From Sulfuricurvum kujiense DSM 16994 (GTDB taxonomy: Bacteria > Campylobacterota > Campylobacteria > Campylobacterales > Sulfurimonadaceae), in contig NC_014762.1 of NCBI RefSeq assembly GCF_000183725.1, positions 1,922,001-1,986,000 on the forward strand: a stretch of DNA of 64,000 nucleotides, written 5' to 3'. Position numbers and translations under genes: made by a program. The notes under the pieces were generated by a model, which did no database searches, had not been told where the DNA came from, and worked only from the letters and a program-made list of their open reading frames with translations. Positions 37,423 to 47,998 of this stretch are shown one piece after another; position 1 is the first letter of the stretch; the number at the start of each line of letters is the position of its first letter.

Positions 37423-38472
37423 TCAAAAGAAATCCATATCGCCGCCGTCATCGGCTAGATCAGGGCGGATCAAACCGATTATCTGCTGGATGCTCAAGGA
37501 TGTCGGCTGATGAATATGGTGAATATTTTTCATCGCCATACTCTCAACAGCAAAGCGTTTGACATAGAGACTCAAATCGATACAAATCGCATCGAATAAC
37601 GAAAGTATCTGATCGGGCTTTGCCTCGAGTTTCGCCAATAAATCTTGTTCCTGTGCGATAACGTCGGAAAGCTCATCGAGACTTTTAGCCAACGGATCCA
37701 GAAAAGGGGTATAGTGAAACAAGATGTTTGAAAGTTTGCCGACATCATCCCGAACCGTCTGAATATGACGGATATCTTTGTCCACAACGTAGCGTGAAAG
37801 CTGATCGGGAATTTCTCCTAATAAATCGGTCATCTCCTCGCAATCATCACCTAGAAACACCACTTTTTCGTTCTCATTCTCTTCATCTTTCGCAAAGTAT
37901 TCTTCGAGCATTTGCGACCGCTCATCTGGATTATTTTGCGCATACAGTTTCCCCATCTGCGAATTTTTGATCTCGACGGTACGTAAATGGGCCAGCAGTT
38001 TTTCAACAATGTGTTTGTATTTGATTCGTTCTTGATTCAGTTCTTCAAAAAGTTCGGCATTGACATTTTGGGCGGATGCATCACGACATACCGGATAAAT
38101 GATTCGTATCATCTCTTCAAGATTGATAGGTTTTAGCAAAAAAGTGCTTACCCCTCGACGCATCATATCGATCAATATTTCAGGTTCATCGTGAGCGGAA
38201 ATAGCAATAATTTTTTGTTCGGGATTGATTTCTCGAATTTGGGAAATCATCTCGATTCCATTTAGACGGGGCATATTGATATCCGTGATAACAATATCAT
38301 ACGTTTCGTGATTGTACTTTTCTATCCCATCTTGACCGTTACCCGCCGTATCCACTTTGGCAAATAAAAGCTTGAAAATCTCCGTAGTTTCTGTTCTGAC
38401 TTGATCATTATCCTCAACATACAATACGGAAAGTTGCTTTGAATAGTTTTGTACATCTTTGATCGTTATCAT
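37423..38472 (-). CDS. receiver protein with unnamed helical C-terminal domain, tail DMDFF
   Basis: 349 residues with GGAGG before the ATG. The receiver (about 10-130; VEDN, IVITDINMPRLNG, LLKPIN) is followed by helices (about 150-335) and an acidic tail ending GGDMDFF. The last ~65 residues match the end of the 48069-49520 protein in pattern (DLSLYVKRF; NIHHIHQPTSLSIQQIIG). There is no DNA-binding or enzymatic domain. It lies between cheB and the CHASE kinase, so it may be a chemotaxis adaptor or phosphate sink. Confidence 0.8.
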   Translation of the reverse strand: MITIKDVQNYSKQLSVLYVEDNDQVRTETTEIFKLLFAKVDTAGNGQDGIEKYNHETYDIVITDINMPRLNGIEMISQIREINPEQKIIAISAHDEPEILIDMMRRGVSTFLLKPINLEEMIRIIYPVCRDASAQNVNAELFEELNQERIKYKHIVEKLLAHLRTVEIKNSQMGKLYAQNNPDERSQMLEEYFAKDEENENEKVVFLGDDCEEMTDLLGEIPDQLSRYVVDKDIRHIQTVRDDVGKLSNILFHYTPFLDPLAKSLDELSDVIAQEQDLLAKLEAKPDQILSLFDAICIDLSLYVKRFAVESMAMKNIHHIHQPTSLSIQQIIGLIRPDLADDGGDMDFF

Positions 38473-38548: not shown

Positions 38549-39571
38549 CTATAATAGTTCCAAAATCCCTTTGGCGATATTTTGCAACGGAAGCTGTCTT
38601 TCCACCGCACCGATATCGTATGCCACTTTCGGCATACCATAAACTATACAGCTCGCCTCATCCTGACCTATTGTTCGGGAACCCGCATTACGCATGGCCA
38701 ACAGCCCGCGGGCGCCGTCTCCCCCCATTCCCGTCAAAATAACACCGATTGCATTCACCCCGGCAATTTTAGCCACAGAGTTAAACAATACATCGGCTGA
38801 GGGTCGGTGTCCGGATACTTTTTCACCGCTGCCGATTTCAACATAGTAGCGGGCGCCGGAACGGCGAACGACCATGTGATAATCTCCCGGAGCGATGAGT
38901 GCGACTCCCGGAGTAATAGAGTCACCGTTGCGTGCTTCGCGCACTTCCATGGCACATAACCCGTTCAACCTCTCAGCAAACGGACCGGTAAAGTTCGAGG
39001 GCATATGCTGTACGATAATAGTTCCCGGTGCATTACGCGGCAATCCCATCAGCACGTCTTTGAGCGCTTCGGTACCTCCGGTTGAGGCACCTATAGCCAA
39101 AATTTTGTTTGTGGTTTCAGCCAATGAAGTAGTATTGGCTTGTTGAATACTTTCGAGGGCACGCTGCCGAACACGGACGCGCGATGCCATTTTAATTTTG
39201 CTTAACAGTTCTTCCCGCATCGTCTCCACACCGTCATAAATGTGCGAATGGGGTTTCCCGACGAAATCGACTGCACCCGCTTCGAGCGCTTCAAGCGTCG
39301 TACGGGCACCGTTTTGGGTTAGAGAAGAGACCATCACGACCGGAACCGGCATATAGTGCATCAGCCTCTTTAAAAAAGTGATGCCGTCCATCCGTGGCAT
39401 TTCCACATCCAAACATACTACATCGGGTTTTAGCTCAACGATTTTATCACGTGCTACATATGCATCTGAAGCGGTTGCTACCACCTCGATAGCTGGATCA
39501 CTTTCCAAAATTTCACGCAGAACGGCACGTGCTGTTGCACTGTCATCGACGATCAATACCCGTATTGCCAT
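38549..39571 (-). CDS. cheB: chemotaxis protein-glutamate methylesterase CheB
   Basis: Removes methyl groups from (and deamidates) chemoreceptors when phosphorylated by CheA. Its 340 residues comprise a receiver (about 1-125; VDDS, VCLDVEMPRMDG) and a methylesterase domain (about 150-340) with the catalytic Ser in IGASTGGTEAL, His in QHMPSNFTGPFAERL and Asp in GMGGDGARGL. AAGGAG precedes the ATG. Twelve bases separate it from cheD. Confidence 0.97.
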   Translation of the reverse strand: MAIRVLIVDDSATARAVLREILESDPAIEVVATASDAYVARDKIVELKPDVVCLDVEMPRMDGITFLKRLMHYMPVPVVMVSSLTQNGARTTLEALEAGAVDFVGKPHSHIYDGVETMREELLSKIKMASRVRVRQRALESIQQANTTSLAETTNKILAIGASTGGTEALKDVLMGLPRNAPGTIIVQHMPSNFTGPFAERLNGLCAMEVREARNGDSITPGVALIAPGDYHMVVRRSGARYYVEIGSGEKVSGHRPSADVLFNSVAKIAGVNAIGVILTGMGGDGARGLLAMRNAGSRTIGQDEASCIVYGMPKVAYDIGAVERQLPLQNIAKGILELL

Positions 39572-40053: not shown

Positions 40054-40863
40054 TTAAAGTTCAATAGCATCATCAAATGATTCAAATAAAAACTCGTTTG
40101 ATCCGCATGCTTCAGAATCGGCTTGTACCGCTTGTTCCGGTATCGTTACCGTAAAAGTCACACTGGTTTCATCGGTTTCATAGTCTATTTTTCCGTCTAT
40201 CAATCCGCACAACTCTCGTGCAATGCTTAACCCAAGTCCTAAACCGTGCGATCCCTCCATCCCCTCGGCAAATCGGGTAAATACCTGCGCTTTGTATTTT
40301 ACATTCGGGCCATGCCCCCGGTTTTTTACGGTAACAATAATTTCAGAGCCTTTTTGAACGATATTAATATTGACAATAGCGTCCGGATCGCCGTAATCGC
40401 AGGCATTGGCGATAATATTTTTTAGAATCAAATAGAGCTTTTTCGGATCGGTGACGATTTTTTCTTTTAACGAACTCTCAACGATGACTGAAATATTTTT
40501 ACGCTTCAGCTTATATTTAAACTCCTCAAGAGCCTCTTCAACGAGTTTTTCAGGATTGACCGACGCATGAGTGACATCCATCATTCCGCTTTCTATTTCG
40601 GAAGCGGCCACTAGATTCTGGATACGCGATTCCAAAAGAAGCGCTTCATCGTGTGCCAGTTCAAAAATTTCCTCACGAGGGTCACCTGCCGGAGGTGTCA
40701 AATGAGGAATCATCCCTAAAAGTGCCGTCATAGGATTATTGAGTTCACTCGCTATTAAAGATAAAAAACGCGATTTAACTTTTTCACTTTCCATAAGCTG
40801 TTTGTTCAACTCAAGGATTTTCCGGCTTAAAAATGCAAATTCTTCATTCTCTTGTTCATTCAT
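40054..40863 (-). CDS. histidine-kinase-like protein lacking the phosphorylatable His
   Basis: 269 residues, no membrane segment. The dimerisation helix reads FLSLIASELNNPMTALLGM where a kinase has FLxxxSHELRTPLxxILGM, so Ser39 stands in place of His. In the ATP-binding domain the N box (ILKNIIANACDYG) and G2 box (GLGLGLSIAREL) are good, but the G1 box reads KNRGHGP, with Asn181 for the usual Asp. It may bind ATP weakly or not at all and act as a scaffold. Placed between the PAS protein and cheD with near-zero gaps. Confidence 0.85.
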   Translation of the reverse strand: MNEQENEEFAFLSRKILELNKQLMESEKVKSRFLSLIASELNNPMTALLGMIPHLTPPAGDPREEIFELAHDEALLLESRIQNLVAASEIESGMMDVTHASVNPEKLVEEALEEFKYKLKRKNISVIVESSLKEKIVTDPKKLYLILKNIIANACDYGDPDAIVNINIVQKGSEIIVTVKNRGHGPNVKYKAQVFTRFAEGMEGSHGLGLGLSIARELCGLIDGKIDYETDETSVTFTVTIPEQAVQADSEACGSNEFLFESFDDAIEL

Positions 40864-40868
40864 TGTCT

Positions 40869-42248
40869 CTACTCATCCATTGTTTTTATAATTTCCGATT
40901 CGGTTCTAAACTGTTTTAACAACGTGCCGATCCCGCCGGCTTCACCCATCAAATTTTGATTTTCTACATGGAAATTGTGCCCCATTTTTTGCATTACAAT
41001 AATCTCTTCGGACGTTTTTCCGATCAATCCCTTAAGCTGCGAAAAAATACCGCCGAAACCGACTTTCTCATCATTATTGCTAGCTGCTTCAATAATCCCG
41101 TACACTTGTATATAGCCTAAATACATCACCTGCCGTTCAAGCTGATCGAGATAGGTGCTGCTCTCTTTTATAAAACAATCCATTTTCAGCTGCAAAGCGA
41201 TCAGTTTCTCATTATACATAGAGACCAGATTGATCAAAAAACTGATGTTCTCTTTCAGCTCCGATGAAACAGATTGAACATGACATTGCAATGTCTCAAA
41301 TAAAAAATAGCTCACCGCTTCAATCTGAATATTCAATGCTGAAACCGTAAAAATGAGTTCATTAAGAGTATCGGTCAGTGATTGGACTAACGTATGGATA
41401 TGTCCGATCAATGTATCGTTCTCTTTGGCATTGACACGAACATCGCTGGCAAGAACCCCGAATGTTTCCCCGCCGTTAGCTACTTTATAGGAAGCTACCG
41501 ATGCGTTAAGTGACAGGAAAACGATATCGCGGGCAAGATGACGAAGTTCCTGTCCTTTTTCATCAAAGACGATTTTGACTTGCTTGTACATATCGACCTT
41601 CTCAAACCACCGTTCATATCGGTGCATTAAAACTTGACTGTATTCCAGCAAAAGCTTTAATTTTGTACCGAGCTGCGTATGAATCTCAGGACATACTTTT
41701 GAATTTTGATCAATGTCGGCAAGAATTTTTTTGTGTTCTCCGAGTTCAGACAAAAGTGCATCCGACATAAAATCGTCATAGCTGTTGTACCCGAGTTCTG
41801 CTAAAAGACCCATCAGCATAGGTTCGCTGGATTCCATCCCACCGCTCGCTTCGGCCATTAAAAGCTTGAAATAAAGCTCACGCACAGCAGCAAATATTTG
41901 AGAATTTGGTTTTATCCGTATCGAAATGAATCTGTCGTTAAGCGGAAAAACAGCGGCCAAAACCCAATAATACTCACCTGTTTTAGCCTGATTTTTGACA
42001 TATGCGACAACCGGCTTGTCATTGTTGATATGATCCCACAACACTTTAAATACGACTCGCGGCATATCGGGATGGCGGATAATATTATGGTACTGTCCGA
42101 TCAGTTCCTCTTTTTTGTAGCCGCTGATACGGACAAAAACTTCATTTCCCGTAAGGATCGTACTCGTACGATCGGTTATCGAGAAAAAAAGTTCGTCGTT
42201 TTCGAATTTAGCCTCTTTGCTTTCGCCAGCAGGGCTTCGATTTTCCAC
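40869..42248 (-). CDS. soluble Aer-type PAS protein with receptor-tip-like segment
   Basis: 459 residues starting at GTG 42248 behind AAGGG. The PAS domain (about 17-120) has the Aer-type IIRHPDMPRVVFKVLW, which in Aer binds FAD, so redox or energy sensing is possible. A long helical part follows. Residues about 243-276 (FLSLNASVASYKVANGGETF and on) line up with the chemoreceptor tip (LLALNAAVEAARAGEHGLGF in the neighbouring receptor), but the key EAARAGE residues are changed. No transmembrane segment. Possibly a soluble adaptor of the receptor array. Confidence 0.78.
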   Translation of the reverse strand: MENRSPAGESKEAKFENDELFFSITDRTSTILTGNEVFVRISGYKKEELIGQYHNIIRHPDMPRVVFKVLWDHINNDKPVVAYVKNQAKTGEYYWVLAAVFPLNDRFISIRIKPNSQIFAAVRELYFKLLMAEASGGMESSEPMLMGLLAELGYNSYDDFMSDALLSELGEHKKILADIDQNSKVCPEIHTQLGTKLKLLLEYSQVLMHRYERWFEKVDMYKQVKIVFDEKGQELRHLARDIVFLSLNASVASYKVANGGETFGVLASDVRVNAKENDTLIGHIHTLVQSLTDTLNELIFTVSALNIQIEAVSYFLFETLQCHVQSVSSELKENISFLINLVSMYNEKLIALQLKMDCFIKESSTYLDQLERQVMYLGYIQVYGIIEAASNNDEKVGFGGIFSQLKGLIGKTSEEIIVMQKMGHNFHVENQNLMGEAGGIGTLLKQFRTESEIIKTMDE

Positions 42249-42258
42249 TTTTAATCCC

Positions 42259-43080
42259 TTATAGTCGTTGATAGATTGAAGAACCCAAAAGTTTCAGACT
42301 CTCACGATGGGTCGTAAGCGATTCGGAGCTTCCCAGAAACAGAGGAGCCCCTTTCGGAAGAAGCGTCGTAAAACGCCCTATCAAGTCATGACGGGTAACG
42401 TCATCAAAATAGATCATTACATTTCGGCAGAATATCATATCAAACCTGTTTTTGAAAAAAAACGGATCGGTCACCAGATTGTATTTACGAAACAGAATTT
42501 TCTCTCTTAACGATGAACGGATTTGATACCGCCCCTCCTCTGTTTTTTTTGCCTCAAAGGATCGGGCAATGATCTCTTTAGACAATCCCTCTACCGCTTT
42601 GGGATCGTAGGCACCTTTCATTGCATGGGTAAGCACTTTCGACGAGATATCGGTTGCTAAAATCTTGATGTCCCATCTCTCAAAATCGCTCAAATGGTGC
42701 TGTAAAAACATCAGTATCGTATAAGGTTCTTCCCCGCTGGAACATCCGGCCGACCAGATACGGATTTTTTTTTCCTTTTTAGAAGCGATAAATGCTGGCA
42801 AATAGCTCTCCAACCACTTCCATTGGGCCCCTTCGCGAAAAAAAGAGGTGACATTAGTTGAAATCGCACTGACGAAGAATGAGAGTTCTTCACCGCTTAC
42901 ATCGGATACCAGATAATCATAATAATCCCGAAACGATTTTAACCCCAGATGATTGAGTCTCTTATTCAGCCGCCCTTTAACCAACGTGGTCTTTTGATCC
43001 GATAAAGATATTCCGACTTTTTCATAAATATACTTGCGAAACAGAGCAAATTCTTCAGGACGAAGCTCAATTTCAAGCAT
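42259..43080 (-). CDS. cheR: chemotaxis protein methyltransferase CheR
   Basis: Methylates receptor glutamates with S-adenosylmethionine. 273 residues from ATG 43080, preceded by GAGGGA and overlapping the cheA stop by 8 bases. The N-terminal helical domain (about 1-75) is followed by the SAM-binding motif IRIWSAGCSSGEEPYTI (about 105-121), ILATDIS, and FCRNVMIYFDD. Overlap with cheA suggests matched production. Confidence 0.95.
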   Translation of the reverse strand: MLEIELRPEEFALFRKYIYEKVGISLSDQKTTLVKGRLNKRLNHLGLKSFRDYYDYLVSDVSGEELSFFVSAISTNVTSFFREGAQWKWLESYLPAFIASKKEKKIRIWSAGCSSGEEPYTILMFLQHHLSDFERWDIKILATDISSKVLTHAMKGAYDPKAVEGLSKEIIARSFEAKKTEEGRYQIRSSLREKILFRKYNLVTDPFFFKNRFDMIFCRNVMIYFDDVTRHDLIGRFTTLLPKGAPLFLGSSESLTTHRESLKLLGSSIYQRL

Positions 43081-45184
43081 GTGTTCCCTCAATTACCGGA
43101 CGAAGCGCATCAACGTTCAGAATTAATGCAATGTCCCCGCTTCCTAAAATCGCTCCGCCGGATATCTCTTTGAGTTTCGCCAAAGATTTTCCGAGCGGTT
43201 TGATAACAACCTGTTGACGCCCTACCAGTTCATCGACCATGATAGCAATGCGGCCTGCTTCGGTCTCCACACATACCAAAATTCCATCCCACGGCTCAAT
43301 CCGCTCAGTCGTAGGTAGATTAAATACATCGCTAAGACGGATAATCGGAAGATGCTGTCCGCGCAACGATACAAATTCCCCTTTTTCTTTGAGAGCATGG
43401 ACGATCTCCTGTTCCGGCCGGAACGACTCAACCACACTCAGGGTAGGGATAATGTAAATTTCACCCGCCGCTTCAACCAGCATACCGTCAATAATGGCAA
43501 GTGTCAGAGGCAACACCATCGAAAAGGTTGTCCCCTCCCCCTCTTGCGATTCAATCTCTATTTTCCCTCGCAGCTTTTCAATCGACGTTTTCACGACGTC
43601 CAATCCGACACCGCGACCGGAGAGATCACTGATCGCATCGGCGGTTGAGAATCCGGGCTGCATAATCAATCCGAAGATTTGAGAATCGGTGAGATTTTCA
43701 TCCCCTGTAATAATTCCCCGTTCAATCGCTTTTTGCAATACTTTCTCTTTGTTGATTCCACGACCGTCATCGCTGACACTGATGACGATACTGCCGCTTT
43801 TATGGTAGGCACGCAAGGTAATATTCCCTTCCGTTTTTTTGCCCGCTTTCAGCCGTTCCTCACCGTCGGCTTCAAGCCCGTGGTCGATAGCGTTACGGAT
43901 AATATGGATCAACGGGTCTGAGAGGCTGTCAATCATCGTTTTATCGATCTCGGTCTCTTCTCCCAAGACATTGAGATGAAGTTCTTTCCCCGTCTTTTTG
44001 GAGGTATCGCGGACTACACGTTTCATCTTATCAAACGTATCACGAATAGCGACCATCCGCAAACTCATAACGCGATCTTGTATCCGTTTGGTGATTTTCG
44101 ATAGAGTCTCAATCGTTCGGCTGATCGATTCATCTTCGATCAAACGTATTTTCTCATTTTGAGCGATAAAGTTTTGGGCAATAACCAATTCTCCGACCGA
44201 ATCGAAAAGTTCATCGAGTTTGAAAGTATCGATTCGGATCGTCGATTTGGCCGCCGCATTCAACGTTGACGTATCCATCCCAGCCGAAGAGGTTTTTGAA
44301 GCCGTTTTCGGTGTATCCGCTACGGTTTCAATAGGAGCCGTAACGGTTTCAGGCACACTGTTTTCAGCTGCGTTTTCGATCACACGTATCGAATACTCAT
44401 GATCAAATAAGAACTCAAAATTCTCTTCAATTTCTGAAATGGATTGAGTTGTTAAAAGGATAATTCCCATTTTAGGCAAATAGTTCTCTTCACACGAGAA
44501 ATTTTCCATTACCGGAACCGACTCAAAATTGAAAACACTCTCAATCAAGACCGCTTTTTCGGCAAGAAGTCCGATAAAAATCTGATGATCGAACCCCCGT
44601 TTGTAGCTATCCGGATCCAGAGTCAATTCGATACGATAGATATGCATCCCCTCTTGTTGGGAAAGACGCATCATCTCAATCGACTGAGTTATCATATTCT
44701 CATACTGATCAGGACATTCCAATCCGAATTCCGCTGCAAGATCGGCAAATGCAGAAACAGGCTCCGCCGGAGCACTGCTCTGAACCGATCCTCCTTTTTT
44801 AGATGCGATCAGTACTTTAATCCCCTCTAAGCACTGTTCATAGTCCTCAGGCAGATCAGGGAGTGCATCAAGTTCGCATACCATCACCTCTTTGATTACA
44901 TCGACACTGTTGACAATCAATTCGAGATGAATGATCTCGATCTCCTCTTTTGTACTGCGATAATAGTCTAGAACATCCTCAAAATGGTGGACAAATTCAC
45001 CTAAACGGGTAAATCCGAAGGCATTGGCATTCCCTTTGAGGGTATGTACCCCTCGAAATATTTCGTTTAGGAGATCAAAATCGGTAGAGTTTTCTTCAAA
45101 GCGGAGAATGTCGACATCGAGTTTTTCGATAATCTCTCCCGCCTCTTCGATAAAAATGGCTTTGACTTGTTCTTGTTTAGTCAT
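43073..45184 (-). CDS. cheA: chemotaxis histidine kinase CheA (no receiver domain)
   Basis: 703 residues from ATG 45184 (the frame extends into the STAS gene). P1 HPt domain with phospho-His47 in GVHTLKGNANAFG; CheY/CheB-docking-like middle region; P3 dimerisation helices (about 320-385); P4 kinase (about 390-560) with HIIRNAIDHGLEADG and GRGVGLDVVKTSI; P5 CheW-like domain to the end (GSGDIALILNVDALRP). Campylobacterota usually have a CheA fused to a C-terminal receiver; this one lacks it, so it probably belongs to a second, separate chemosensory system. Confidence 0.96.
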   Translation of the reverse strand: MTKQEQVKAIFIEEAGEIIEKLDVDILRFEENSTDFDLLNEIFRGVHTLKGNANAFGFTRLGEFVHHFEDVLDYYRSTKEEIEIIHLELIVNSVDVIKEVMVCELDALPDLPEDYEQCLEGIKVLIASKKGGSVQSSAPAEPVSAFADLAAEFGLECPDQYENMITQSIEMMRLSQQEGMHIYRIELTLDPDSYKRGFDHQIFIGLLAEKAVLIESVFNFESVPVMENFSCEENYLPKMGIILLTTQSISEIEENFEFLFDHEYSIRVIENAAENSVPETVTAPIETVADTPKTASKTSSAGMDTSTLNAAAKSTIRIDTFKLDELFDSVGELVIAQNFIAQNEKIRLIEDESISRTIETLSKITKRIQDRVMSLRMVAIRDTFDKMKRVVRDTSKKTGKELHLNVLGEETEIDKTMIDSLSDPLIHIIRNAIDHGLEADGEERLKAGKKTEGNITLRAYHKSGSIVISVSDDGRGINKEKVLQKAIERGIITGDENLTDSQIFGLIMQPGFSTADAISDLSGRGVGLDVVKTSIEKLRGKIEIESQEGEGTTFSMVLPLTLAIIDGMLVEAAGEIYIIPTLSVVESFRPEQEIVHALKEKGEFVSLRGQHLPIIRLSDVFNLPTTERIEPWDGILVCVETEAGRIAIMVDELVGRQQVVIKPLGKSLAKLKEISGGAILGSGDIALILNVDALRPVIEGTHA

Positions 45185-45440
45185 GACATATCCAATGAAT
45201 GGTTCCATACGCCGGTGAAACGGTGGACCCTTTTTCTAAAAAAGGGATGATGAGTTCACGGCGTGTTTTTTTTAAGCTCGCTAAAAGAGCCAGAAGAGCA
45301 CTGCTTTTTAAAATCCCCCCATCTTCTATCTCAATACGATCGATATAGTCGATACGGGGACGGACGAACGCTTCAAATTCTTTAATCTCTTCCATACTCA
45401 TCGATAAATCGATGGTGAGAGCGTCTCCGTCGAATTCCAT
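45177..45440 (-). CDS. STAS-domain protein encoded next to cheA
   Basis: 87 residues; the fold pattern (DALTIDLS at the start, IEIEDGGILKSSALLALLAS in the middle) is that of anti-anti-sigma/STAS domains, where a Ser after the DxxG turn can be phosphorylated. Here SS at about 48-49 are candidates. The gene starts right after the receptor stop (TAAATG) and overlaps cheA by 8 bases. STAS next to CheA is seen in some non-standard chemosensory systems; the role is not settled. Confidence 0.78.
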   Translation of the reverse strand: MEFDGDALTIDLSMSMEEIKEFEAFVRPRIDYIDRIEIEDGGILKSSALLALLASLKKTRRELIIPFLEKGSTVSPAYGTIHWICHD

Positions 45441-47087
45441 TTAAAACTCTTTCAGATCGTTCTCAGAGAGCGGAAACACTTCATCGGCTTTCGGAGTCGC
45501 TTTGCTTTTCAATGCAGGCGGCGCTTTACGCGGTGCCGGAGCTTGCGCTTTCATCTCGATATGGTGAAGATTCATCTTTTTGATACTGTGTGCCGCGGGG
45601 GCGTCGCTCTCCATCCCTACCATTTTCGCTAAGATTCGTACGGTCTCCATCATGGAGGTCGCCTGTGCGTTCAGCTCTTCTGCCGCTGCCGCCGCCTCTT
45701 CGGAGTTTGCCGCAACTTGTTGGGTTACTTGGTCGACTTGCCCCATTGCCTGATTGATCTGCGTCATCCCCTCTGCCTGCTCTTTTCCGGCGATAGCGAT
45801 TTCTCCGATCAGGTCGGATACTTTTTTACTTTGTTCGACGATCTCTTGGAATGAGGTATGGGTCGCAAGGGCGATTTGGTTCCCCTCTTTGATCTGACCG
45901 ACTACCTCTTCGATGATATCGGAGGTCTCTTTGGCAGCCGATGCCGCGCGTTGAGCCAAATTACGGACTTCGTCCGCAACTACCGCAAACCCTAAACCGT
46001 GCTCACCGGCGCGTGCCGCTTCGACAGCCGCATTGAGTGCCAAAAGGTTGGTTTGGAAAGCGATCTGATCGATCGTTTTGATAATACCTGAAATCTTAGC
46101 CGCCGATTCGGTGATCGCGTGCATCGAATGGGAAAGCTGCTCACCCTTCTCGTATCCCGCTTTTGCCGAATCGTTCGCGTTTCTTGCCAGAATATCGGCT
46201 TGGCGTGCGTTATCGGTATTTTGGGTATTGATCGCGGTGGACTCTTCGAGTGTCGCGCTGACTTCTTCGACACTGCTTGCCTGCTCGCTCGCACCCTGGG
46301 CCAATGACGATGACGACGATGCAACCTGATCCGATGCCGACGTGATCTGCATCGCTCCGTCACGAATCGACGTAACGCTCGCGGTGATTGAACGGGTGAT
46401 TGAACGGATCAATGCCCATGCTAAAAGAATCGCAAAAAGAATCGAAAGAACCGCAACAATCATAAACATCTGTTTGTACGATGATGAGTTCTCTTTTGCT
46501 TCCGCATTAGTCTTAGCGATGACGTCTTTATTAATGTCATACACATTTTGCAAATGTTCGGCAGAAGCTTTACGTTCTGCTCGAATTACATCCAGTTGCT
46601 CGGTCATTTTATTAAATAAAAGTTCAATTTGGGCAGGATCATCGGTTTTTGCTAAAATACCTACAACTTCTTTGTGAAATTGTTCGCTATGTTTGCGCCA
46701 TGATTCATAAGTAGGTTTAAATTCTTGCCACTCTTTTGCTTCTTCCGGAGTTTGAGGAAGCGGCTCGTAAATCACCATACCTTTATCAATACGTTCAAAT
46801 GCCTCTTGCATCTCCTCAGAAGCATTCTGCATCTTCTCTTTCAATTTAGGATCACCTTTTAGACCACGGACACGGTTTTGCTGAATAGCAATCATCTGTG
46901 TGCCATTGCGGATTGTCCCGACACTGACCAACGAAGGCACACGGACGTCCCCGATTTCAATAATATCAGCTTCCCATCCGGCAGTTGCTTTAAATCCCAT
47001 AACTCCTAAAAGGATCATCGCAACAACCATTACTCCGGTAAGCAATGCTAACTTTGTTTGTAATACCATATTTTCTAACCAATTCAT
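45441..47087 (-). CDS. methyl-accepting chemotaxis protein with four-helix-bundle sensor
   Basis: 548 residues with AGGAG before the ATG. Membrane segment (about 14-34), periplasmic helical bundle (about 35-205; 4HB-MCP type), second membrane segment (about 208-230), HAMP (about 230-285), and signalling hairpin with tip FQTNLLALNAAVEAARAGEH and GFAVVADEVRNLAQRA. The C-terminal linker is basic and Pro/Ala rich and ends SENDLKEF, which could tether CheR/CheB-like enzymes in the way NWETF does in enteric receptors (inference). The only full receptor in the cluster. Confidence 0.95.
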   Translation of the reverse strand: MNWLENMVLQTKLALLTGVMVVAMILLGVMGFKATAGWEADIIEIGDVRVPSLVSVGTIRNGTQMIAIQQNRVRGLKGDPKLKEKMQNASEEMQEAFERIDKGMVIYEPLPQTPEEAKEWQEFKPTYESWRKHSEQFHKEVVGILAKTDDPAQIELLFNKMTEQLDVIRAERKASAEHLQNVYDINKDVIAKTNAEAKENSSSYKQMFMIVAVLSILFAILLAWALIRSITRSITASVTSIRDGAMQITSASDQVASSSSSLAQGASEQASSVEEVSATLEESTAINTQNTDNARQADILARNANDSAKAGYEKGEQLSHSMHAITESAAKISGIIKTIDQIAFQTNLLALNAAVEAARAGEHGLGFAVVADEVRNLAQRAASAAKETSDIIEEVVGQIKEGNQIALATHTSFQEIVEQSKKVSDLIGEIAIAGKEQAEGMTQINQAMGQVDQVTQQVAANSEEAAAAAEELNAQATSMMETVRILAKMVGMESDAPAAHSIKKMNLHHIEMKAQAPAPRKAPPALKSKATPKADEVFPLSENDLKEF

Positions 47088-47582: not shown

Positions 47583-47969
47583 TTAGACCCCCAGTACCAT
47601 TTTGATCGATTTAACCAGTTTCTCATCATTAAACGGTTTGACCATCCATCCGGTTACTCCGATCTCTTTTCCCGTCATTTTCATTGATTCCGAGCTCTCA
47701 GTCGTGAGTACGATGATCGGCTTCGTCTTATAGCGTTCATCGGTTTTGATCGCCCTAGCCAAATCCAATCCGTTCATTTCAGGCATATTGACATCACTGA
47801 TCAATAAATCAAAATTCTCCGCTCCGCTTTGCAATGCACCTAAAAGTTCCAACGGGTTCAAATACGATTTAAATTCTATTACGCCGCTCCCGATCAAGCC
47901 ATCCAATGCCAACTCTGCTGTCGCAATAACCGCTCTGGAATCATCAACAATAATTACTCTTTTTGCCAC
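47583..47969 (-). CDS. cheY: single-domain response regulator, CheY-like
   Basis: About 128 residues from GTG 47969, chosen because AAGGAG lies 9 bases upstream; an in-frame ATG at 47990 is upstream of that ribosome site. The acidic pair is VDDS, the phospho-acceptor Asp is in LLISDVNMPEMNG, switch Thr/Ser in VLTTES and Lys in MVKPFND. It is a plausible partner of the local CheA, though the motor-binding surface cannot be judged by eye. First gene of the che run after a terminator. Confidence 0.9.
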   Translation of the reverse strand: MAKRVIIVDDSRAVIATAELALDGLIGSGVIEFKSYLNPLELLGALQSGAENFDLLISDVNMPEMNGLDLARAIKTDERYKTKPIIVLTTESSESMKMTGKEIGVTGWMVKPFNDEKLVKSIKMVLGV

Positions 47970-47998
47970 TTTAATTTTCTCCTTATACATAGTTGTTA

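Follow-up and report, generated by a model that had tools for sequence, protein, structure and literature searches.

A histidine pseudokinase conserved directly upstream of short-type cheD in chemosensory clusters of Campylobacterota

Gene content of the chemosensory cluster

The sequence analyzed here (hereafter the window) is a stretch of 64,000 nucleotides from the genome of Sulfuricurvum kujiense DSM 16994 (NC_014762.1, positions 1,922,001 to 1,986,000), which carries the chemotaxis genes listed in Table 1. Among them is a gene for a small pseudo-histidine kinase (pHK), whose open reading frame runs from 40863 down to 40054, where the plus strand contains many stop codons. A preliminary description of this gene, made from the sequence alone, had placed it without gaps between a PAS protein and cheD. 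Its packing is indeed that tight: 5 bases lie between the stop codon of the PAS protein and the pHK ATG, and cheD begins with its ATG immediately after the pHK stop codon.

Table 1 Features of the pHK gene and of the surrounding chemosensory cluster (positions in the window)
Feature	Position	Strand	Remarks
pHK, 269 aa	40054..40863	-	HisKA-like helix pair, HATPase_c and conserved C-terminal tail
Phospho-acceptor codon 39 (AGT, Ser)	40747..40749	-	Plus strand reads 'act'; Asn/Ser/Tyr, His in 0/80 homologues
Codon 43 (AAT, Asn), HisKA phosphatase Thr/Asn position	40735..40737	-	Role according to PMC3510030
N box, residues 149-153 (NIIAN)	40405..40419	-	Intact
G1-box Asn181 (codon AAC) replacing Asp	40321..40323	-	Box reads NRGHG; alignment of 80
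G2 box GLGLG, residues 207-211	40231..40245	-	Intact
Conserved C-terminal tail, residues 252-269 (ACGSNEFLFESFDDAIEL), 18 residues	40057..40110	-	Alignment
cheD, short type, 156 aa	39583..40053	-	Pfam; start abuts pHK stop; beside every pHK found
PAS and degenerate MCP-like protein	40869..42248	-	Pfam; lineage-specific, between cheR and pHK
cheR	42259..43092	-	Conserved upstream neighbour; named from sequence and conserved synteny
cheA (Hpt, dimerisation, HATPase_c and CheW domains)	43073..45208	-	Pfam
cheB	38549..39571	-	Conserved neighbour downstream of cheD; named from sequence and conserved synteny
Chemoreceptor, C terminus ...DEVFPLSENDLKEF	45441..47087	-	Resembles pHK tails of other lineages
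cheY-like receiver	47583..47990	-	Candidate ligand or substrate of pHK (putative partner)

In Pfam searches, pHK matched HATPase_c clearly (61 bits versus a cut-off of 26.4) and HisKA marginally (27.2 bits versus 26.9); among the A1 members, HATPase_c was found in 25 of 25 and HisKA at E<=0.01 in 17 of 25. These were the only families above their Pfam cut-offs, with no match to PAS, CheC, CheX or CheZ domains. NCBIfam returned only generic histidine kinase matches, all far under their cut-offs, so pHK has no curated NCBIfam family that describes it. An AlphaFold model built from three sequences was of low confidence (pLDDT 62, tail below 50) and contained the expected helix pair and ATP domain. 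Using this low-confidence model, the top chains retrieved by Foldseek included HK853-RR468 complexes and DivL, the latter being the second-best fold match. A scan of genome contigs with one pHK protein yielded three relatives, all from Sulfuricurvum, and a non-exhaustive literature search found no paper that names the gene.

The PAS gene is absent from most loci that do not belong to clade A, the Sulfuricurvum/Sulfurimonas-type clade, and from some clade A loci as well. An obligate partnership with pHK was rejected on this distribution, and the PAS protein is not the core partner but a later insertion. Across 33 sequences, its MCP-like hairpin has a degenerate yet conserved tip, with FLSLNASVASYK..GGETFGVLASDIR in place of LLALNAAVEAARAGE; the protein is possibly a pseudo-receptor specific to Sulfuricurvum/Sulfurimonas-type loci. 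In addition, the window has a gene for a PAS-containing histidine kinase (PAS-HK) not far from pHK, and another lies directly upstream of a second pHK copy found elsewhere in the genome. The receptors of these two pHK loci (45441-47087 in the window and 4424-6070 on L200) have nearly identical cytoplasmic halves and different sensor parts, and the CheW proteins of the two loci are ~90% identical. This likeness of receptors and CheWs points to recent duplication or gene conversion.

Loss of the phosphorylation site

A set of 80 pHK homologues was assembled from Campylobacterota genomes of several families: clade A (42 sequences, including the window copy), set B (19, including the second copy of the host) and set C (19, from other families). 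The H-box helix of the window protein reads KSRFLSLIASELNNPMTAL, in which Ser39 aligns with the phospho-accepting histidine present in six canonical kinases of the same genome. Site 39 was occupied by Asn in 65 homologues, by Ser in 14 and by Tyr in one, and by His in none; the usual residue is therefore Asn rather than the Ser of the window. Pro44, N149, N153 and the three glycines of the G2 box were invariant (80/80), and the G1 position held Asn in 60 and Asp in 20. Thus, the phosphorylation site of the kinase has been lost across the pHK homologues, and pHK can be classed broadly as a histidine pseudokinase, that is, a protein with a kinase fold and no phospho-histidine that is conserved as such. 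The preliminary description had reported the serine codon in an otherwise clear H-box context, the replacement of the G1 aspartate by Asn181, and the intact N box, G2 box and reading frame, all of which we confirmed. It had also named orthologues with His at this site as evidence against its view, and there were none among the 80.

In a phylogenetic tree, all 80 pHKs formed one clade (support 100/100) apart from the six canonical kinases of the host. Since every member lacks His, the simplest history is a single, early loss of this residue. The G1 residue, when mapped on the tree, requires five changes, at least four of them forced by well-supported branches, so the loss of the G1 Asp came later and more than once. 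We also considered a displaced phospho-histidine elsewhere in the helix. The candidate, H54, was kept only in clade A (38/42) and not in set B, and hence it is no general replacement.

It should be noted that the HisKA helix serves two activities with partly separate residues. The residue needed only for kinase activity, Glu40, was replaced in 27 of the 80 homologues, while position 43, whose residue is reported to be needed only for phosphatase activity (PMC3510030), was Asn in 73 and Asp in the remaining seven. The statement in the preliminary description that both catalytic functions are damaged therefore overlooked receiver dephosphorylation.

A decaying or non-functional gene, or a sequencing error at the codon of the phosphorylation site, can practically be dismissed. 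Broken pHK copies do exist, one in a Sulfuricurvum metagenome-assembled genome (MAG; L050/L074, 6172-6919, split by a frameshift) and one in G115. However, cheA is split on the same contig of the MAG, which suggests an assembly error, and the large majority of genomes, from several families, carry an intact gene with strong residue conservation. Decay and sequencing error are in fact already refuted by the 80 homologues without His and with conserved boxes. Because the gene is conserved and each copy found across the phylum stands directly before cheD, pHK probably regulates chemotaxis and has been overlooked in this role, and is not a gene in decay.

As a separate observation, locus L201 (4724-5461, plus strand) encodes a small stand-alone HisKA/HATPase protein of 246 aa that belongs to another family of the phylum, with an H-box (YLELAKEQLTSPLDYIL) in which His again seems to be absent. 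The 10 kb fetched for this locus showed no cheD.

Pairing with short-type CheD

By length, the CheD proteins of Campylobacterota form two classes, one of about 150-165 aa and one of about 220-270 aa (L188-L195), which are encoded in different che clusters and present together in several genomes. To define partners, we surveyed 397 Campylobacterota genomes, which contained 53 pHK and 97 CheD genes; open frames of <200 aa were counted as short-type CheD (n=53) and the others as long-type (n=44). All 53 short-type cheD genes had pHK directly upstream on the same strand, and none of the 44 long-type genes did. No pHK occurred without CheD (0/53), and the genomes with pHK and those with short-type cheD were identical sets of 50. 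In eight long-type loci the order was cheA-cheR-cheD-cheB; there, cheD followed cheR immediately or overlapped it, without an intervening gene. Nearly all short-type loci had the order cheA-cheR-pHK-cheD-cheB, and a divergent group had cheR-cheY-pHK-cheD-x-cheB. The second locus of the host contains, as named from sequence, a PAS histidine kinase, pHK2, cheD2, two receivers, a glutathione-peroxidase-like gene, cheW2 and a receptor; pHK2 and cheD2 overlap by a few bases, and no cheA, cheR or cheB was present in the 18 kb examined there. The kinases and receivers downstream of pHK differed from locus to locus and CheD was constant.

Thus, the tightest genomic partner of pHK is CheD and not CheA. 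The preliminary description was right in recognizing a pseudo-histidine kinase within a che cluster, probably with a regulatory role, and wrong in assuming damage to two functions. CheA, which it had named alongside a receiver protein as an example of a binding partner, is not the most likely one, given the invariant presence of CheD (53/53) and the second copy, with no cheA, cheR or cheB in the 18 kb examined. The main alternative for the pairing is that pHK and short-type CheD may simply be co-inherited members of a single operon type. The second locus without cheA and the divergent gene order argue in part against this.

Regional constraint and the C-terminal tail

Within clade A, mean pairwise identity was 80% for the H-box helix, 81% for the tail (residues 252-269) and 76% for the coiled coil, and it dropped to 44% in the N/G1 part of the ATP domain and to 27% in the spacer that precedes the tail. 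The best-conserved parts of pHK are therefore the H-box helix and the C-terminal tail. A terminal Glu followed by Phe, Leu or Ile was found in the pHK of 69 out of 77 loci versus 12 of 777 other open reading frames of the same loci. In nearly all loci, the last five residues of the cluster's receptor are DLKEF or DLREF; those of pHK are DAIEL in the window and DMKEF in several members of set C. The pHK tail thus suggestively resembles the receptor C terminus, although the resemblance is weak in the window and not unique to pHK.

Several limits apply to this resemblance. Over 14 residues, no more than 28 of 64 loci had pHK as the protein that best matched the receptor tail, because other acidic tails in the clusters match equally well or better. 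Considering also that the sequences are related to each other, mimicry of the receptor tail was rejected as a statistically clean claim and is retained as a lead. In the host genome, DLKEF followed by a stop occurs twice, once per pHK-locus receptor, and the two occurrences are partly one event because the cytoplasmic halves of these receptors are nearly identical. This DNA pattern was also discarded as a phylum-wide marker, as control counts point to chance hits in many genomes and the pattern is present in many genomes that lack pHK. The canonical C-terminal pentapeptide recognized by CheR and CheB (NWETF type) has aromatic residues at positions 2 and 5 (PMC7390727), a rule that DAIEL of the window, DMKEF (Met at position 2, Phe at position 5) and the receptor DLKEF all fail. 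The receiver at 37423-38472 (minus strand) has an acidic, aromatic C terminus, GGDMDFF, and in this respect resembles the tails of pHK and the receptor encoded beside it; similar DDIEFF-type tails occur in related loci. A common C-terminal docking motif in the receptor, pHK and this receiver is possible.

Proposed function and alternative explanations

From these data we infer candidate partners and a mechanism for pHK, with CheY as ligand, binding to CheD and a function for the tail. In the reading we prefer, to which we tentatively give a probability of about 0.4, pHK is a kinase-dead reader or phosphatase of phospho-CheY that works with CheD as a functional analogue of CheC. It would have been retained as a part specific to one class of chemosensory systems in Campylobacterota. 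As a dimer, it would use its HisKA helix bundle to bind phosphorylated CheY or a different receiver encoded in the cluster. The bound receiver would be either dephosphorylated through Asn43 or merely sensed, and this binding would control the availability of CheD at the receptors. For the tail, the docking site may be CheD or some other adaptation enzyme that recognizes the receptor tail as well. Overall, this would amount to a feedback or adaptation loop comparable to CheC-CheD of Bacillus subtilis, in which pHK substitutes for CheC.

Separation of the two HisKA activities has experimental precedent. The CrdS substitutions H371A and E372A lose kinase activity and keep phosphatase activity (CrdA~P half-life of 2.6 and 0.4 min, respectively, versus 53.5 min alone), and N375A, N375Q and N375D abolish phosphatase activity (PMC3510030). 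The state of pHK, which lacks the His, often lacks the Glu and mostly keeps the Asn, is what would be expected of a protein under selection for receiver binding or dephosphorylation. On the other hand, the phosphatase activity of PleC needs its His, as cited in the same article, and phosphatase activity cannot be universal among pHKs, given the seven Asp43 copies and the effect of N375D in CrdS. Binding without catalysis is equally allowed by these copies and by the precedent of DivL, a His-less kinase that can sense a phosphorylated receiver, binding DivK~P without kinase or phosphatase activity (PMC4211667). In B. subtilis, the binding of CheD to CheC, which is strengthened by CheY-P, outweighs either enzyme activity (PMC3513319). 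Since CheC thus couples CheY-P to CheD mainly by binding, and CheD is the invariant neighbour of pHK, we propose pHK in the CheC position.

A DivL-like sensor or scaffold is a possible, less probable alternative. Such a protein would bind a phosphorylated receiver without dephosphorylating it and allosterically control another histidine kinase, for example the nearby PAS-HK, or the receptor array, and the adjacency of CheD would reflect operon co-inheritance. The place of DivL among the fold matches, its binding of DivK~P without enzyme activity (PMC4211667), the PAS-HK near both host copies and the seven homologues with Asp at the phosphatase position are all consistent with it. However, downstream kinases and receivers vary between loci and CheD never does; DivL specificity uses PAS domains, which pHK lacks, and Asn43 is kept in most homologues.

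It is unlikely that pHK is simply a dedicated CheY~P phosphatase, an extra signal-termination enzyme derived from a HisKA domain in which CheD has no role. Lost kinase residues together with a kept phosphatase Asn do fit the separation-of-function mutants of CrdS, yet the strict link to short-type CheD, the N43D change in 7 of 80 homologues and the conserved tail, which would be left unexplained, argue against it. Moreover, the same genome has five CheX-model matches and a weak CheZ-like match; its CheC-model matches are short (25-35 positions) and overlap the CheX-model matches in place. Removal of CheY-P hence does not need pHK, and the idea that pHK is the only CheY-P phosphatase of the genome was rejected. 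We regard it as very unlikely that pHK uses its HisKA helices to form a heterodimer with a canonical histidine kinase and thereby silences or tunes that kinase. The high identity of the coiled coil and H-box helix in clade A would suit such a role, but no one kinase is present at all loci, and CheA dimerises by a different domain (H-kinase_dim).

Regarding the origin of the CheD-linked receiver reader that we prefer, a rather doubtful scenario is that a kinase was stripped of its activity in the ancestor of the chemosensory class and became a CheD-dedicated receiver reader, a convergent substitute for CheC whose tail mimics the receptor to compete for an adaptation enzyme.

Significance and comparison with known systems

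Chemotaxis adaptation is among the best-described signalling circuits. A conserved protein that cannot accept phosphate at the usual site, and of which no copy without CheD was found, would add a new component to the adaptation circuit, one that generic annotation would name a sensor histidine kinase. It would illustrate the conversion of a kinase into a protein that reads or terminates phospho-signals, and would offer a natural example of a HisKA helix whose roles in kinase activity, phosphatase activity and binding have come apart during evolution.

An F7_Sulfurospirillum-type chemosensory class is described in Sulfurospirillum, Sulfuricurvum and Sulfurimonas (PMC9321776), and these genera agree with the Sulfuricurvum relatives of pHK. 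The passages on this class do not name the pHK gene, and genes of unknown function are drawn there only as dots. The cluster in the window probably belongs to this type.

Among characterized proteins, DivL of Caulobacter (PMC4211667) resembles pHK in having the HisKA and HATPase fold without a phospho-histidine, which makes receiver sensing a candidate role. In contrast to DivL, a regulator of CckA in the cell cycle that carries PAS domains at its N terminus, pHK is small, lacks PAS domains and is encoded in a che operon together with CheD; the phosphorylation site holds Asn or Ser in pHK and Tyr in DivL (Tyr in only one of 80 pHKs). By these differences, pHK is not a DivL orthologue. The role proposed here, a CheY-P reader or phosphatase coupled to CheD, is that of CheC in Bacillus subtilis and Thermotoga, although pHK is unrelated to CheC in fold and family and has no CheC/CheX domain. 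Finally, like the HisKA phosphatases CrdS and HK853 (PMC3510030), pHK has Asn at +4 from the phosphorylation site, the phosphatase Thr/Asn position; unlike them, it lacks the His and often the Glu, and is thus predicted to be without the kinase half of their activity.
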